IMG/VR virus record: IMGVR_UViG_3300030906_000642
Location: 1-58,056 of that record
DNA length: 58,056 nucleotides
Reading direction: 5' to 3' (one strand)
Source of the DNA: a virus
The position numbers were made by a program, and so were the translations under genes. Each line of letters opens with the position of its first letter. Position 1 is the stretch's first letter. Below are positions 976 through 57,333 of this stretch, in pieces. Below the pieces are notes generated by a model, which ran no database searches, was not told the origin of the DNA, and was given only the letters and a program-made list of their open reading frames with translations.

Positions 976-1315
976 GGCATCGCCCCGAAGAGTCCTTGTT
1001 TAACCTACGTCGGCTGCCTGCTCCCGCGCGGAGTCGAGTCCGGGCCTGCCCCGACAGCGACAAAAATAGAACATCGCGGCGCTGGGCGTTTTTCGGAAAC
1101 GGTAGGACGATCCGGAAATTCTCGCAAAATCAATGGAAACCAAGAATCGGACGCCAAAACGCCAATCCCGCGCAAGAGCGGCGAACTATCCAATCTTTTC
1201 AAAGATTAAGTTTGGAGGCCTGGCCGAGAATCGAACTCGGGTACACGGATTTGCAGTCGGTGGGGTGGTTAGGGAATTCAAGGGGTTATCCGCGCGCGTC
1301 GCTGTGGCGTCGTTG
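976..1315. other. Intergenic host-phage junction
   Basis: No gene is supported here. Bases 976-1206 are host DNA downstream of the nitronate monooxygenase gene. Bases 1207-1258 are attL. Bases 1259-1315 are the left phage end between attL and the integrase stop codon. Integrase arm-type sites may lie here, but I could not identify them. Confidence 0.6.
1207..1258. repeat. attL (52-bp direct repeat with attR)
   Basis: These bases are identical to 57254-57305. They correspond to the 3' half of tRNA-Cys including the encoded CCA and a few bases beyond. Identity stops at 1259 (G here, C at the right copy). The tRNA fragment is 5'-truncated here, so no functional tRNA is made from this copy. The integrase gene ends 58 bases away, the usual int-attL arrangement. 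Confidence 0.95.
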
Positions 1316-2569
1316 TCAGGTTCCGGAGAGGATCAGGCGTTCACCATCGGCGGCCATCTCCTGGTCGCCGGCTTCGTCGGTCCAGAGGTGGCCGTAAAGG
1401 TCCATGGTCATGGCCAGGGTGGCGTGGCCCAGCTTCTCCTGAAGCTTCTTCGGGGTGACGCCGTTCTTGATCTGGATCGAGGCGTAGACGTGCCGCAGCA
1501 TGTGCGGGGCGAAGTCCACCTTCAGCACCTTCCGCCCGCGCTGGCCCGGTTCGGTGTCGGCCAAGCCGGCCCGCAACATGAGCGGATTCCAGCACTGGCG
1601 GCGGAAGTCGGAGTAGGACCACAGCGGCCCAAAGCGACCGCCGGCCGGCCCCGGAAACAGGCGCGGCGGGATGTTGTGGCCCTGGCCGCCCGACAGGTGA
1701 ACGATGCCGCGGGCGGCGCGCCAGGCGCGCACGGCCTTGGCGGTGGCGGGGCCGAGCGGGACGTCGCGCAGGCCGTCCTCGCTCTTTACGTCGCCCAGGG
1801 TGGTGTGCCGCGAGCAGAGCTTCTCGACGACGTGGAGAATGCCGCCGGCGTTGGAATTCGCGCCGATCGCGCGTTTCAGTTCGGCCGCCTCGTCCGCCGC
1901 GCCGAGCAGCTCGGAAATGCGGAAGCCGCCGAACATCAGCAGATGCACGAGGGCGGTGTCCCGTTCGGGATGGGGGCCTTCGCTGGCGGCTTGGACCAGC
2001 GCGGTCAGCTGCGGCATCGGCGCCACCTCGACCTTCTGGTCGGCGCGCCGGCGACGCTTCTGGACGATCTTGGCCGCCTTGACCGGGTCGCCCTTAAGCC
2101 AGCCGTTGCGGGCGCCGTGGGCGCACCAGGCCGAGAGGCTGCGGCGCACCCGCCGCGCGGTCTCGACCGACCCGGTGCGGGCGATGACCCGATCCAGGAA
2201 GGCCTGTATCCGCGGCGTGTCCAGGTCGCTCAGGACCGTCGTCGGCAGGGCGGAGAATCCATCCTCTTCGGTGGTGGCGTCGATCGCCAGATGACAGCGC
2301 AGATGGGTGTCGTAGCCATCGGCCGTTCGCCGGTCGCGCTCGCCGGCGGCGACGATGGCGTCGAACCAGCGGTTATGGCTCTTGGCGAGGGCGAGCACCG
2401 TCATGTCGGCCGAGCCCGATGCGCCGACGCCATCGTGCTTCTTCACCCAGGCGTCCGCCTCGCGCTTGGTGGGATGGTTCCTGGACTTCCGCTTGCCCGA
2501 CAGCGTCTTGACCGTCGCCTGCCACGCCAGCTTGCCGGAGGAGTGGACGATCTTGCGGACGTTGGCCAT
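1316..2569 (-). CDS. int: Tyrosine recombinase integrase
   Basis: This 417-residue protein is a phage tyrosine recombinase that would catalyse site-specific integration and excision at the tRNA-Cys attachment site. The catalytic set is visible: Arg217 in GGFRISELLG, His356 and Arg359 in HMLRH, His382 in LGHATLAMTMDLYGHL, and the nucleophile Tyr392. The N-terminal 45 residues, with a lysine/arginine-rich segment, resemble an arm-site binding domain, and residues about 55-160 resemble a SAM-like core-binding domain. The ATG at 2569-2567 is followed directly by family-like sequence. It is the last gene of the leftward early operon and faces attL, as in many lambdoid prophages that use tRNA targets. 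Confidence 0.95.
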   Translation of the reverse strand: MANVRKIVHSSGKLAWQATVKTLSGKRKSRNHPTKREADAWVKKHDGVGASGSADMTVLALAKSHNRWFDAIVAAGERDRRTADGYDTHLRCHLAIDATTEEDGFSALPTTVLSDLDTPRIQAFLDRVIARTGSVETARRVRRSLSAWCAHGARNGWLKGDPVKAAKIVQKRRRRADQKVEVAPMPQLTALVQAASEGPHPERDTALVHLLMFGGFRISELLGAADEAAELKRAIGANSNAGGILHVVEKLCSRHTTLGDVKSEDGLRDVPLGPATAKAVRAWRAARGIVHLSGGQGHNIPPRLFPGPAGGRFGPLWSYSDFRRQCWNPLMLRAGLADTEPGQRGRKVLKVDFAPHMLRHVYASIQIKNGVTPKKLQEKLGHATLAMTMDLYGHLWTDEAGDQEMAADGERLILSGT

Positions 2570-52279: not shown

Positions 52280-52339
52280 GGCTTTCAGCGTCCTGGATCA
52301 GCGCGCTTACCCGCCGCCCGTGAGCCATTGGAGCCCAGC

Positions 52340-52558
52340 ATGCCCGTCCCCACGCCTCCCGAGGCGCCCGTCGTCGTGTCCTCTGCGCCGCGCCGCTCGG
52401 TGGACACCTATTTGGTGGTGCAGGCTATTGTCGTCCTGATGCTGGGCGCGCTCGCCCTGGCTTTGGTGCTCAAGGGCGACACTAGTCATGCAGCGGAGAT
52501 CGGCGCCGGCCTGATCGGCGCCCTGGCGCTGAACCGCAAGCGGAGCGGCGAGCAATGA
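52340..52558 (+). CDS. Holin candidate
   Basis: The 72-residue product has a proline-rich N-terminus, a transmembrane segment at about 24-45 (LVVQAIVVLMLGALALALVL) and a second weaker hydrophobic segment (about 54-65), then a basic tail (NRKRSGEQ). It directly overlaps the lysozyme gene (ATGA). This layout and place fit a class II holin or similar release protein. The role is inferred. Confidence 0.65.
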   Translation: MPVPTPPEAPVVVSSAPRRSVDTYLVVQAIVVLMLGALALALVLKGDTSHAAEIGAGLIGALALNRKRSGEQ

Positions 52559-53007
52559 CCCCGTCCACCGCCTGCGCATCGCTCATCAAGCAGTTCGAGA
52601 CCTGCGGCAAGCCGCTGGGCGACGGCCGCTTCATCGCCTACCTGCCGACGCCACAGGATCGCCCGACCATAGGTTGGGGCACGACCGGACCCGACATCAA
52701 GCTCGGATTGGTCTGGGCCAGGGCCGAGTGCGATGTCCGCTTCGCCGCCGATCTCAAGACCTTCGGGGAGGGGGTGGCTAAGCTGATCACCGGCCCCACC
52801 ACTCAGGCCCAGTACGACGCCATGGTCTGCCTGACCTACAACATCGGCCCGGGCAGCTTCCGCGTCTCGACCCTGCTGCGGATGCATAACGCCGGTGACC
52901 ACGAGGGCGCAGGCGCCCAGTTCGCCGACTGGAACAAGCAGGCCGGCAAGGTCCTAGCTGGACTGACCACCCGCCGCGCCGCAGAGGCCGCGCTGTACCG
53001 CTCCTAA
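52555..53007 (+). CDS. Endolysin, GH24 lysozyme family
   Basis: The 150-residue product is a T4-type lysozyme that cleaves peptidoglycan between N-acetylmuramic acid and N-acetylglucosamine. The likely catalytic Glu15 lies in KQFETCGKP, with Asp35 in PQDRPTIGWGTTG, and YDAMVCLTYNIGPG is the family helix. No signal peptide is present, so export needs the holin. It overlaps the holin gene by four bases. Confidence 0.92.
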   Translation: MTPSTACASLIKQFETCGKPLGDGRFIAYLPTPQDRPTIGWGTTGPDIKLGLVWARAECDVRFAADLKTFGEGVAKLITGPTTQAQYDAMVCLTYNIGPGSFRVSTLLRMHNAGDHEGAGAQFADWNKQAGKVLAGLTTRRAAEAALYRS

Positions 53008-53093: not shown

Positions 53094-53321
53094 ATGCCCG
53101 AAGTGAACAGCGCGTCCGACGAGCGGACCGTCAACAACACCATGCGCCACGCCTATCGCGTCCTGAGTGACGACGAGAAGGCCAAGATGCAGGCCATCAA
53201 GGACCAGGGCCTCGCGTTCCACGACTTCATCGCCAGCCTTGGCTCCAGCCGCGAAATCTCGCTGGCCAAGACCAAGGTCGAGGAAGCGGTGATGTGGGCC
53301 GTCAAGCACCTCACGGCCTGA
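53094..53321 (+). CDS. acb2: Acb2-like anti-CBASS cyclic oligonucleotide sponge
   Basis: The 75-residue product carries the Acb2 (T4 Vs.4 family, Acb2/Tad1 hairpin) pattern: HAYRVLSDDEKAKMQAIKDQ, then LGSSREISLAKTKVEEAVMW and AVKHLTA. Known Acb2 proteins form hexamers that bind cyclic di- and trinucleotides and so block CBASS defence. Here it is the main visible anti-defence gene, located after the lysozyme gene. The ATG follows a short gap and a hairpin ends the region. Confidence rests on the strongly conserved C-terminal helix; the exact ligand range is unknown. Confidence 0.85.
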   Translation: MPEVNSASDERTVNNTMRHAYRVLSDDEKAKMQAIKDQGLAFHDFIASLGSSREISLAKTKVEEAVMWAVKHLTA

Positions 53322-54298: not shown

Positions 54299-54961
54299 AT
54301 GACCGACATCCTTGCGCCGGCGGTCTCGCCGTCCAACGCCATCAACGACCCGTCGAAGACCCTGCGGGATTTCGCGCTGGCGGACCTGGCTCAATACACG
54401 CCCGAGCGGACGCCTGACCCCAACGCCAGCAAGGACGTGCAGCTGTTCCTGGTCGGCAAGGATGACGTGCACGATGTGCTAAAGCACCTGCTCAGCCGCG
54501 CCTCGATCTGCATCCACCTCAATATGTTCGGCTATGACGATGAAGAGCTGAACACGATCCTCATGGCCAAGGCCATGGACCCGAACGTCTATGTGTTCAT
54601 CACCCTGGACCTGAGCCAGGCCGGCGGAAAGCACGAGGCGGCGCTGATCGCCCTCGATCGCCAGATGAACCTCGCCGCGTTCAACACCCACTTCGCGATC
54701 GGTCAGTCCGCGACACATTCCATCAGCCACACCAAAGGCGCCGTGCTTGACAACCGCGTCGTGTTCCAGGGCTCGGTCAACTGGTCCAGGGACGGGGAGG
54801 GGACCTTCGTCACCCGGGGCCAGCCCGGCGGCGTTGGCTACAAGGCCCAGAACAATACCCTGGACGTCATCCTCGACCTGGGTATTGCCGCGCGCTTCCA
54901 GGCCAGGCTGAGCGACGAACACCTGATCGCCGTCAAACAGCAACTGGCGAAGGCGGCCTGA
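54299..54961 (+). CDS. Phospholipase-D-like protein with single HKD motif
   Basis: The 220-residue product shows the PLD signature once: His144 and Lys146 in ISHTKGAVLDN, then GSVNWSRDGEG (from residue 158). PLD-fold enzymes act through two HKD sites, so this protein would need to dimerise, as Nuc-type nucleases do. No signal peptide is present. It may cleave nucleic acid or phospholipids; its place beside accessory genes suggests host takeover or defence evasion. The substrate is unknown. Confidence 0.75.
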   Translation: MTDILAPAVSPSNAINDPSKTLRDFALADLAQYTPERTPDPNASKDVQLFLVGKDDVHDVLKHLLSRASICIHLNMFGYDDEELNTILMAKAMDPNVYVFITLDLSQAGGKHEAALIALDRQMNLAAFNTHFAIGQSATHSISHTKGAVLDNRVVFQGSVNWSRDGEGTFVTRGQPGGVGYKAQNNTLDVILDLGIAARFQARLSDEHLIAVKQQLAKAA

Positions 54962-54991: not shown

Positions 54992-55171
54992 ATGACTGAT
55001 CTCCAGCGCGACCAACTGGTCGCCGCCGTCTTCGCCACCCCGGCCGGCAAGCGGCTGATCGAGGATGTCCAGGCGCGCGGCGCGACCTGCCTCACCCTCG
55101 CCGATATCGCTGCCGCCATCGCCCGCGCTCGGCGGACGTGGTCGACCGCCAATCCGGAAACCCACGAATGA
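54992..55171 (+). CDS. Hypothetical 59-residue protein
   Basis: The frame begins MTDLQRDQLVAAVFATPAGK and ends with an ATGA overlap to the desaturase gene. It is helical and basic-acidic mixed. No family is recognised. The palindrome sits where its ribosome site should be, so a regulator bound there could block translation or transcription. Confidence 0.5.
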   Translation: MTDLQRDQLVAAVFATPAGKRLIEDVQARGATCLTLADIAAAIARARRTWSTANPETHE

Positions 55172-55707
55172 TCGCCACCGTCCTGGGCCAGCTGCTGATC
55201 GGCTGGCTGATCACCGATTTTCTGAGCGGCGTCGCCCACTGGTGGGAGGACCGCGTCGGCCGCCGAGACTGGCCGGTGATCGGCCGCATCGTCGTGGTTC
55301 CCAATCGCGAGCATCACCGCGTGCCGCTGGCCTTCCTGCGCGCCCGGCTGTGGAAGCGGAACCGCGCGGTCTGGCTGGTCGCCGGCCTGATCTCGATCAC
55401 GTGGCTGCTCTTGTTGGGGCCGTCCTGGACCTGGGCGTCGGCGACGATCGGCGGCCTGGTGGTGGGCGAGGTCCACGGCCTGGCGCATCGGCCGCCCCGG
55501 CCGGGATCCTGGCCGGGGATTCTGCAGCAGATCGGCCTGATCCAGTCGCCACCCCACCACGCCGGCCATCACCGGGCGCCCTCCGACCGTCGCTACTGCA
55601 TCCTGACCGACTGGCTCAACCCGGTGCTCGACAGGGTTGGCTTCTGGGTCGCCCTCGAGACCGCTCTGACCTGCATCGGCCTTGAACCCAACAGGGGAAC
55701 AGCATGA
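55168..55707 (+). CDS. Lipid desaturase-domain protein (CarF/TMEM189/Kua family)
   Basis: The 179-residue product aligns in pattern with plasmanylethanolamine desaturases: AHWWED near the N-terminus (His24), NREHH (His49-50), HGLAH (His103, His107) and HHAGHH (His130-135), then YCILTDWLNPVLDRVGFW. These His clusters bind the di-iron site. Membrane segments lie at about 5-22, 68-84 and 86-104. CarF makes the vinyl-ether bond of plasmalogens in myxobacteria and animals. A phage copy is unexpected; it may alter host membrane lipids or act on a different lipid. Substrate is unknown. Confidence 0.85.
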   Translation: MIATVLGQLLIGWLITDFLSGVAHWWEDRVGRRDWPVIGRIVVVPNREHHRVPLAFLRARLWKRNRAVWLVAGLISITWLLLLGPSWTWASATIGGLVVGEVHGLAHRPPRPGSWPGILQQIGLIQSPPHHAGHHRAPSDRRYCILTDWLNPVLDRVGFWVALETALTCIGLEPNRGTA

Positions 55708-56321
55708 TCCTCAACACCGTCCGCTTCATCATCGGCGTCTTCTGCACGACAGCCCTGTTCTGGGCCGGGATGCTGTTCGAGCACCGGCCGGCCGGTTGGC
55801 CCAACCTCAACGTGCCGCTGCCCTTTGGCGCCCACTGGACATTCCAGCTGCCCGACGGGCCATACGTCAAACTCACCGTCCTGCAAGCCCGGGAGGCGCA
55901 AGCCGGCCGCCAGGTCGTGGCGCTCCAGGCCAGGCAGTTGGCGATCGCCACGAGGGCGAATGCGGCTCAGGCCGCCGTCCAACTCAGAATTCAGACTGTC
56001 ACCAAAACCCTCATCAAGGAGGTTCCCGTCTATGTCGATCGCCAAGCTGTCGCTGCTTGTACTGTCAACACTGGCTTTGTGCGCCTGTACAACGCCGCCG
56101 TCGTCGGCGAGCCCCTCCCAGGCGGGGATGCCAACACCGCCAGCGGCGCTAATGACGCCCCCTCCGGTGTTGGACTCGATACCGTTGCCCGCGTCTCCAT
56201 TACCAACCTCGGAAAAGCCCACTCGGCCATAGAGCAGGTGAGAGGCTGGCAGACCTGGTATCAGTCTGAATATCAGGCGTGGCTCGCCACCCGCGCCAAG
56301 CTCGCCAACCCAGCCAAATAG
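55704..56321 (+). CDS. Rz: i-spanin (Rz-like)
   Basis: The 205-residue product has an N-terminal transmembrane segment (LNTVRFIIGVFCTTALFWAG), a periplasmic helical region (about 62-105, LQAREAQAGRQVVALQARQL) and a soluble C-terminus. It is the inner-membrane spanin subunit, which joins inner and outer membranes at lysis. A lipoprotein gene (Rz1-like) is nested inside it in another frame. Its ATG overlaps the desaturase stop by four bases. Confidence 0.8.
   Translation: MILNTVRFIIGVFCTTALFWAGMLFEHRPAGWPNLNVPLPFGAHWTFQLPDGPYVKLTVLQAREAQAGRQVVALQARQLAIATRANAAQAAVQLRIQTVTKTLIKEVPVYVDRQAVAACTVNTGFVRLYNAAVVGEPLPGGDANTASGANDAPSGVGLDTVARVSITNLGKAHSAIEQVRGWQTWYQSEYQAWLATRAKLANPAK
56032..56232 (+). 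CDS. Rz1: o-spanin lipoprotein (Rz1-like), nested in Rz
   Basis: The 66-residue product has a lipoprotein signal (MSIAKLSLLVLSTLALCAC) with lipobox LCAC, so it would be acylated and placed in the outer membrane. The mature part is short and proline-rich (PPAALMTPPPVLDSIPLPAS), the typical o-spanin composition. AAGGAGG lies nine bases upstream of the ATG at 56032, within the Rz frame. Overlapping Rz/Rz1 genes are well known in lambda-like phages. Together they finish envelope disruption. Confidence 0.85.
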   Translation: MSIAKLSLLVLSTLALCACTTPPSSASPSQAGMPTPPAALMTPPPVLDSIPLPASPLPTSEKPTRP

Positions 56322-56358: not shown

Positions 56359-56664
56359 ATGCCCCCCGAATCGACCCTTACGACCCGCCTGCTGGACGCT
56401 GGCGCCCCGGCATGGGCGATCATGATGGCCGAGGAGGTGGGCGGCCTGAAGCAAACCATCGGCGTCCCCAGCGACGACGGCAAGAGCGGCTCCGGCTTGG
56501 TCGGAAAGGTCAACGACATGGGGGCCAAGATGGACGGGCTGATGAGTCTGAAAACCCTCGGCATCGGCGCCCTCGGCGGCATCGCCCTGGTGCTGGCCAT
56601 CGTCGTGTTCGGCCTCAAAGGGACCTTCGCCGCGGTCCTCGGGATATTCGGGGTCAAGGTTTAG
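56359..56664 (+). CDS. Membrane protein with C-terminal hydrophobic segment (second holin candidate)
   Basis: The 101-residue product has an N-terminal soluble part (MPPESTLTTRLLDAGAPAWA) and a long hydrophobic C-terminus (about 65-98, LGIGALGGIALVLAIVVFGL, then TFAAVLGIFG) that could hold one or two membrane segments. It is the last late gene, with GAAGGATC as ribosome site, and is followed by the strong terminator. It could be a holin or antiholin beside the spanins. Confidence 0.6.
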   Translation: MPPESTLTTRLLDAGAPAWAIMMAEEVGGLKQTIGVPSDDGKSGSGLVGKVNDMGAKMDGLMSLKTLGIGALGGIALVLAIVVFGLKGTFAAVLGIFGVKV

Positions 56665-57253: not shown

Positions 57254-57305
57254 TAAGTTTGGAGGCCTGGCCGAGAATCGAACTCGGGTACACGGATTTG
57301 CAGTC
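57254..57305. repeat. attR (52-bp direct repeat with attL)
   Basis: Identical to 1207-1258. It contains the 3' half of the tRNA-Cys gene from the anticodon stem to the encoded CCA and six bases beyond. Host DNA resumes at 57306. Confidence 0.95.
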
Positions 57306-57333
57306 CGTTGCGTAACCACTCCGCCACCAGGCC
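57260..57333 (-). tRNA. tRNA-Cys (GCA), reconstituted by the prophage
   Basis: The 74-base gene reads GGCCTGG at its 5' end (57333-57327), which pairs with CCAGGCC at the 3' acceptor (57270-57264). The discriminator U and encoded CCA follow (57262-57260). The anticodon GCA is at 57301-57299. A normal T-arm sequence GTTCGATTC is present. The prophage supplies the 3' half, and the intact 5' half and promoter are host. Without this precise replacement, integration would inactivate the gene. Confidence 0.95.

Follow-up and report, generated by a model that had tools for sequence, protein, structure and literature searches.

A PF10520-type lipid desaturase gene of a phage lineage beside the spanin genes of a tRNA-Cys provirus

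Why would a phage carry a gene for a lipid desaturase among its lysis genes? The question is raised by a reading frame near the right end of a 58,056-base IMG/VR virus record (IMGVR_UViG_3300030906_000642), the whole of which is called the window here. A first-pass annotation, made from the letters alone, had assigned the frame to the CarF/TMEM189 type of plasmanylethanolamine desaturase and placed it in the late operon. The features that bear on the question are given below.

1207-1266, plus strand: attL candidate, direct repeat with 57254-57313
1316-2569, minus strand: phage integrase (phrog_1, 4e-43)
52328-52558, plus strand: 76-aa hydrophobic protein, overlaps the start of the endolysin gene and is a holin candidate from its position (no confident family)
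52555-53007, plus strand: endolysin, a phage lysozyme (PF00959, 2.9e-33; phrog_7, 2.5e-42)
54299-54961, plus strand: PLD-like protein upstream of the desaturase (PF13091 at 8e-6, just under cut-off; HTK...GSVNW motif)
54992-55171, plus strand: 59-aa ORF, overlapped by the desaturase start at ATGA (no PHROG or PADLOC match)
55168-55707, plus strand: phage Lipid_desat (PF10520) desaturase, 179 aa, from ATG at 55168 to TGA ending at 55707
55704-56321, plus strand: Rz-like i-spanin, ATGA overlap with the desaturase stop (phrog_4952, 3e-24; phrog_8821 Rz-like spanin, 8e-8)
56032-56232, plus strand: nested Rz1-like o-spanin lipoprotein, 66 aa, lipobox LCAC, Pro-rich (by sequence)
56359-56664, plus strand: 101-aa protein, single hydrophobic segment, lying after the spanin genes (no family match)
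57254-57313, plus strand: attR candidate, direct repeat, in tRNA-Cys (57260-57333, minus strand)

The family assignment of the first-pass annotation is upheld. The profile search that could have placed the protein elsewhere returned PF10520 (Lipid_desat) at 115.1 bits and 4.8e-33 over profile positions 1-172 of 175, above the curated Pfam cut-off of 26.4 bits. The only other Pfam match is FA_hydroxylase PF04116 (E 0.0013, 19.6 bits), which falls below its own cut-off, and no match to the three-box fatty-acid desaturases (FA_desaturase type) was returned. Enzymes of the PF10520 type hold two irons on the cytosolic face and use O2 and an electron donor to act on intact phospholipids. The motifs NREHH, HGLAH, HHAGHH and YCILTDWLN, on which the assignment had been based, are each found in the 179-aa translation, and the residues of the active site map as follows.

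55237-55251, plus strand: HxxxD motif with H24 and D28 (mouse H96 and D100; alignment and conservation counts, numbering from PMC8960569)
55303-55317, plus strand: N46-R-E-H49-H50 (mouse F118, H121 and H122), with Asn at the Phe place common to PEDS1 and FAD4 (alignment counts)
55342-55344, plus strand: codon 59, Ala at the PEDS1-specific His131 place (alignment counts; PMC8960569, PMC9131029)
55474-55488, plus strand: H103xxxH107 (mouse H187 and H191; alignment and conservation counts)
55558-55572, plus strand: H131xxH134H135 (mouse H215, H218 and H219; alignment and conservation counts)

Mutants of mouse PEDS1 define eight essential His (96, 121, 122, 187, 191, 215, 218 and 219) and an essential Asp100, and Phe118 is important as well, an F118 mutant retaining only 6% of the activity (PMC8960569). 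The window protein has all eight His (H24, H49, H50, H103, H107, H131, H134 and H135) and the Asp, D28, four residues past H24. We counted conservation over 55 distinct relatives, mostly phage, which group into 39 clusters at 80% identity. Conservation of each His is 54 or 55 out of 55, down to about 27% identity, which answers the doubt raised earlier over the His ligands in homologues; Asp28 and Asn46 are each kept in 54, and position 59 is variable. The gene is apparently intact and is under purifying selection, with dN/dS between 0.07 and 0.33 in eight pairs of relatives.

For the structure, AlphaFold2 gave a pLDDT of 95.3 and a pTM of 0.89 from an alignment of 49 rows that left out two rows from deposited phage records. 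The model has three long helices (2-29, 61-83 and 87-106) with shorter helices around the ligands, and hydropathy marks the first two long helices as clear membrane spans. A search of solved chains found no homologue by sequence. By fold, the best solved match is the yeast di-metal fatty-acid hydroxylase Scs7p, and it is weak (E 0.87, probability 0.85, TM 0.54), while the best named match among predicted viral structures is a Harvfovirus 'Lipid desaturase domain-containing protein' (E 3e-5).

The Scs7p match raises the alternative that the protein acts on the same membrane lipids as a hydroxylase or another oxygenase. The wider fold includes both desaturases and hydroxylases, the sub-threshold PF04116 match points the same way, and Asn at the Phe118 position across the clade could mean a changed reaction, a point that also counts against the reading that we prefer. 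The profile scores nevertheless stand at 115 bits for PF10520 against 19.6 for PF04116, and the essential Asp of the desaturases is retained. We consider a hydroxylase unlikely and take the protein as a desaturase in what follows.

The two att candidates form a 60-nt direct repeat, 95% identical with the first 52 bases identical, and tRNA-Cys lies at the right end. The integrase is found just inside the left repeat, and the stretch from one repeat to the other encodes terminase, portal, capsid, tape measure, tail proteins and a repressor. Because att repeats, integrase, phage structural genes and repressor occur together, we read the window as a complete tRNA-Cys provirus, about 56 kb long and bordered on either side by some host DNA. 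The host chromosome is probably alphaproteobacterial. For the PCMT gene in the flank, the best match in the Alphaproteobacteria sample is at 64% identity, and no above-threshold match was found in an Erythrobacteraceae MAG.

The desaturase unit sits in the last late block ahead of attR, and its neighbourhood is a Gram-negative lysis cassette with endolysin and Rz/Rz1 spanins on one strand and a holin as candidate only. Nesting of Rz1 within Rz is the usual anatomy of this pair. The overlap with the spanin gene had been recognized in the first-pass annotation and is confirmed as ATGA; the overlap of the desaturase start with the stop of the 59-aa ORF was absent from it. The late operon that it proposed fits the position and strand of the gene, and late expression is a prediction.

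Directly after the endolysin, at 53094-53321, the window encodes an Acb2/Tad1 hairpin-domain protein (PF24729, 2.6e-19), likely an anti-CBASS protein in the late block. We also considered the PLD-like gene as a functional partner of the desaturase and rejected it: none of 24 phage relatives of the PLD-like protein from IMG/VR has a desaturase nearby, and the pair is therefore not conserved. A reading of the desaturase as part of a defence system was likewise dropped, as it has no PADLOC match. The PLD-like protein itself gave weak DrmC matches (E 0.002-0.004, PADLOC), which most likely reflect the shared PLD domain.

To what extent is this arrangement particular to the window? One profile scan of IMG/VR yielded 74 viral loci with the gene. 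Gene calls in these neighbourhoods are mechanical, so that some small genes may be wrong, and several loci have no neighbour that can be named. With this in mind, we distinguish five settings besides that of the window, in which the spanin gene lies downstream of the desaturase. In the first (L001, L019, L023, L024, L026, L027 and L028), a lysozyme or amidase is followed by an ORF for an o-spanin-like lipoprotein, which either overlaps the desaturase or directly adjoins it; the lipoprotein has weak PHROG support (0.0076 for L023), and no lysis enzyme was detected in L019. In the second (L039), an amidase lies immediately upstream. The third is the late region of Mu-like phages (L020-L022, L029, L042, L044, L104 and others), with terminase and either GH108 endolysin genes or genes that we take, from our own reading of the sequence, to be DUF2730-like. 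The fourth is found in Cbk-like phages (L017, L032, L037 and L043), with PhoH upstream and portal downstream. In the fifth (L103), a neck protein lies upstream and the tail sheath downstream, and L003 and L015 have a similar upstream gene. In many of these other phages the gene overlaps the gene upstream of it by 4 nt, often ATGA. The late genes found near it comprise holin, endolysin, amidase, terminase, portal and sheath genes. The desaturase gene thus travels with late genes and has lysis genes next to it in three or more distinct arrangements. Since it is also found beside terminase, portal, neck and tail-sheath genes, it is not confined to lysis cassettes, and for the same reason the evidence for a role at lysis is suggestive only.

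The same neighbourhoods bear on whether the gene serves the lysogen instead, its expression from the resident prophage altering the host membrane for stress tolerance or phage exclusion and not for lysis. The gene lies near attR, a frequent site of cargo, with the anti-CBASS-like Acb2 gene and the PLD-like gene close by. Against such lysogenic conversion, it runs in the same direction as the lysis genes and is linked to the spanin gene by the ATGA overlap, the lytic Erythrobacter phage L02 has a copy beside its portal gene, and other proviruses hold the gene within head or tail modules. This explanation strikes us as quite unlikely.

Which lipid would a desaturase of this kind act on? PF10520 enzymes are known for the plasmalogens of human and myxobacteria and for a chloroplast phosphatidylglycerol. 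The first of these activities was the one proposed in the first-pass annotation, namely that the protein is a true plasmanylethanolamine desaturase (CarF/PEDS1) making plasmalogens from host ether lipids. In its favour are the PF10520 domain, the eight His and the Asp with the spacing within and around the motifs, and the CarF equivalog NF045946 as best NCBIfam match (1.7e-24). That match scores 86.6 bits against a cut-off of 500, however, and other phage and chromosomal relatives tested score between 25 and 106 bits. It spans profile positions 58-229 of 269; the phage protein lacks about 57 profile positions at the N-terminal end, which leaves it without the N-terminal part typical of the family, and about 40 at the C-terminal end. 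His131 is present in PEDS1 and absent from FAD4 (PMC8960569); at this place (CarF H113) the window protein has Ala59, a position variable across the clade, and the counterpart of mouse Phe118 is Asn46. A review of the CarF work reports that this ninth His is absent from the homologues of Alphaproteobacteria and plants, and that the sole alphaproteobacterial homologue tested, from Bradyrhizobium diazoefficiens, failed to replace CarF (PMC9131029). On residues, length and equivalog score we reject the identity of plasmalogen synthase, and hold this rival to be very unlikely. Two residues tied to plasmalogen synthesis are absent, and therefore the window enzyme probably acts on a lipid other than a plasmalogen precursor, as the caution in the first-pass annotation about another substrate had correctly allowed; plasmalogen synthesis by it is, judging from its residues, unlikely.

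Neither of the other known types offers a full match. FAD4, the plant phosphatidylglycerol delta-3-trans desaturase, acts on an intact phospholipid and shares PF10520, the eight His and the Asp, and the lack of the PEDS1-specific His. It differs in residing in the chloroplast, and the phage proteins have Asn at the Phe118 place and, in the window, Ala at position 59 where plants usually have Arg. The alphaproteobacterial CarF homologues (the Bradyrhizobium-like L110/L113, and L082) share PF10520, the same ligands and the absence of His131; unlike the phage protein they are of REHH type, have an N-terminal extension and form a separate supported clade. Because the phage proteins carry Asn where PEDS1 and FAD4 have Phe in common, they fit neither signature, and the exact label that their sequences support is 'PF10520, N-type'.

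Two observations on the relatives may be added here. The Bradyrhizobium-like homologue L110/L113 adjoins fatty-acid beta-oxidation genes (3-hydroxyacyl-CoA dehydrogenase). The copy of an uncultured 595-kb phage (L018) keeps the Asp and the full set of eight His, combines them with Phe in position 118 and His in position 131 (mouse numbering), and scores only 90.5 bits against the CarF equivalog. If a plasmalogen desaturase is to be sought in phages, its residues make it a stronger candidate than the window protein.

To estimate how far the phage type extends, we looked for the gene in named phages, plasmids and bacterial genomes. Two copies were found among named phages, one in the Erythrobacter phage vB_EliS-L02 (51%) and one in the 595-kb phage (28%; L018, 5983-6441, LR756511.1), for which no relative was found in IMG/VR. 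The former copy (L017, 2337-2873) is UIS25202.1, annotated as hypothetical, and lies between PhoH and portal; the word 'desaturase' is absent from the main text of the vB_EliS-L02 paper. Plasmids gave zero matches. Matches were found in 5 of 385 sampled Alphaproteobacteria and 5 of 398 sampled Pseudomonadota, and 145 Verrucomicrobiota returned matches only in the genome already known. The family of the Erythrobacteraceae MAG is richer, with 18 matches in 299 genomes. Among them, three strong matches belong to the phage type: L103 and L104, which lie in prophages that are Mu-like by gene content, and the MAG contig L015, whose protein is identical to that of provirus L003. The remaining 15, about 5% of the sampled Erythrobacteraceae/Sphingomonadaceae-type genomes, are weak (41-53 bits). 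We rejected the explanation that these belong to another family, since the six inspected (L087, L089, L092, L094, L098 and L100) retain the Asp along with every one of the eight His, and branch as a chromosomal clade of their own; they are a divergent form with Phe46 and Arg59, which stand in the positions of mouse Phe118 and His131 and agree with plant homologues.

The family tree proposed earlier as a check on whether phage copies form a clade gave a clear answer. In a tree of 53 rows, the window falls in a phage-only clade of 20 rows (99/93) within a phage-only clade of 33 rows (95/87). Five chromosomal copies form a group of their own (88/98), and those chromosomal copies that are of REHH type are set apart, together with L018 from the jumbo phage. 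When the six sphingomonad chromosomal copies are added, the 20-row clade stays (96/94), the added copies fall outside a branch with 100/98 support, and the 33-row phage set has 87/83; the tree is unrooted and gives no direction of transfer. The phage-only clade spans siphophage, Mu-like and Cbk-like phages apart from the chromosomal copies. This result points to a deep phage lineage spread over several phage types, which does not look like a recent acquisition from the host copies sampled. That the gene is a non-functional passenger retained by chance after transfer between phages is barely credible: its neighbours differ between phages and only a minority of phages have it, but the active site is conserved and dN/dS low over this deep clade.

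Taken together, the reading that we consider reasonably probable as a whole is that the window encodes a late-expressed di-iron desaturase of a phage lineage that acts on intact host phospholipids. The protein would be a di-iron lipid desaturase with the PF10520 fold, integral to the membrane and of minimal size. Its phage lineage, 'N-type' for the Asn in place of Phe118, is distinct from both PEDS1/CarF and FAD4. We infer that it is made from the phage late operon with its translation coupled to the spanin gene. The three long helices would anchor it in the inner membrane, and on its cytosolic side two irons would be bound and tuned by the eight His and Asp28. Using O2 and a host carrier as the source of electrons, it may desaturate a chain of its substrate late in infection; among the window genes scanned, none was recognized as a dedicated electron donor. 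That this substrate is intact host phospholipid is a guess; the likely product is an unsaturated acyl chain, as with FAD4, and not a vinyl ether.

The altered membrane might aid the final steps of infection, whether assembly at the membrane, triggering of the holin or fusion of the inner and outer membranes. It is conceivable that the enzyme takes part in spanin-mediated fusion or in lysis. In its strongest form, the hypothesis would be that the phage desaturase remodels host phospholipids shortly before lysis so that the spanins can fuse the inner and outer membranes, as a fourth, lipid-directed part of the lysis machinery that was acquired in the vicinity of lysis genes in no fewer than three separate arrangements; we regard it as speculative and improbable.

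We found no report of a phage PF10520 enzyme in the open-licence literature searched. Roitman reportedly described in 2018 fatty acid desaturases encoded by cyanophages, as cited in PMC8228385 and PMC9600351. Sea-ice viruses encode stearoyl-CoA-desaturase-like desaturases (PMC7300359). These are alike in being virus-encoded membrane desaturases thought to alter host membranes during infection; they are of a different family, three-box and stearoyl-CoA-desaturase-like in the sea-ice viruses, whereas the window protein matches only PF10520. A branch confined to phages, whose active site is intact and whose signature residues differ, offers a compact (179 aa) and diverse set in which to seek the determinants of substrate choice in PF10520, and it opens to experiment the question whether lipids are altered by phages at the time of lysis. 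Because the isolated Erythrobacter phage vB_EliS-L02 has an unannotated copy, the experiment is feasible now.

Finally, the window contains nine copies of a 15-bp palindrome, GCGAACCSGGTTCGC, where 0.49 are expected (8751, 10467, 13971, 17977, 27904, 30626, 38409, 48307 and 54969). The palindrome is absent from the other loci except L014, which is a copy of the window, and its last copy lies just upstream of the 59-aa ORF that heads the desaturase-spanin unit. The palindrome has the look of an operator used across the whole phage, or of a site of that sort.
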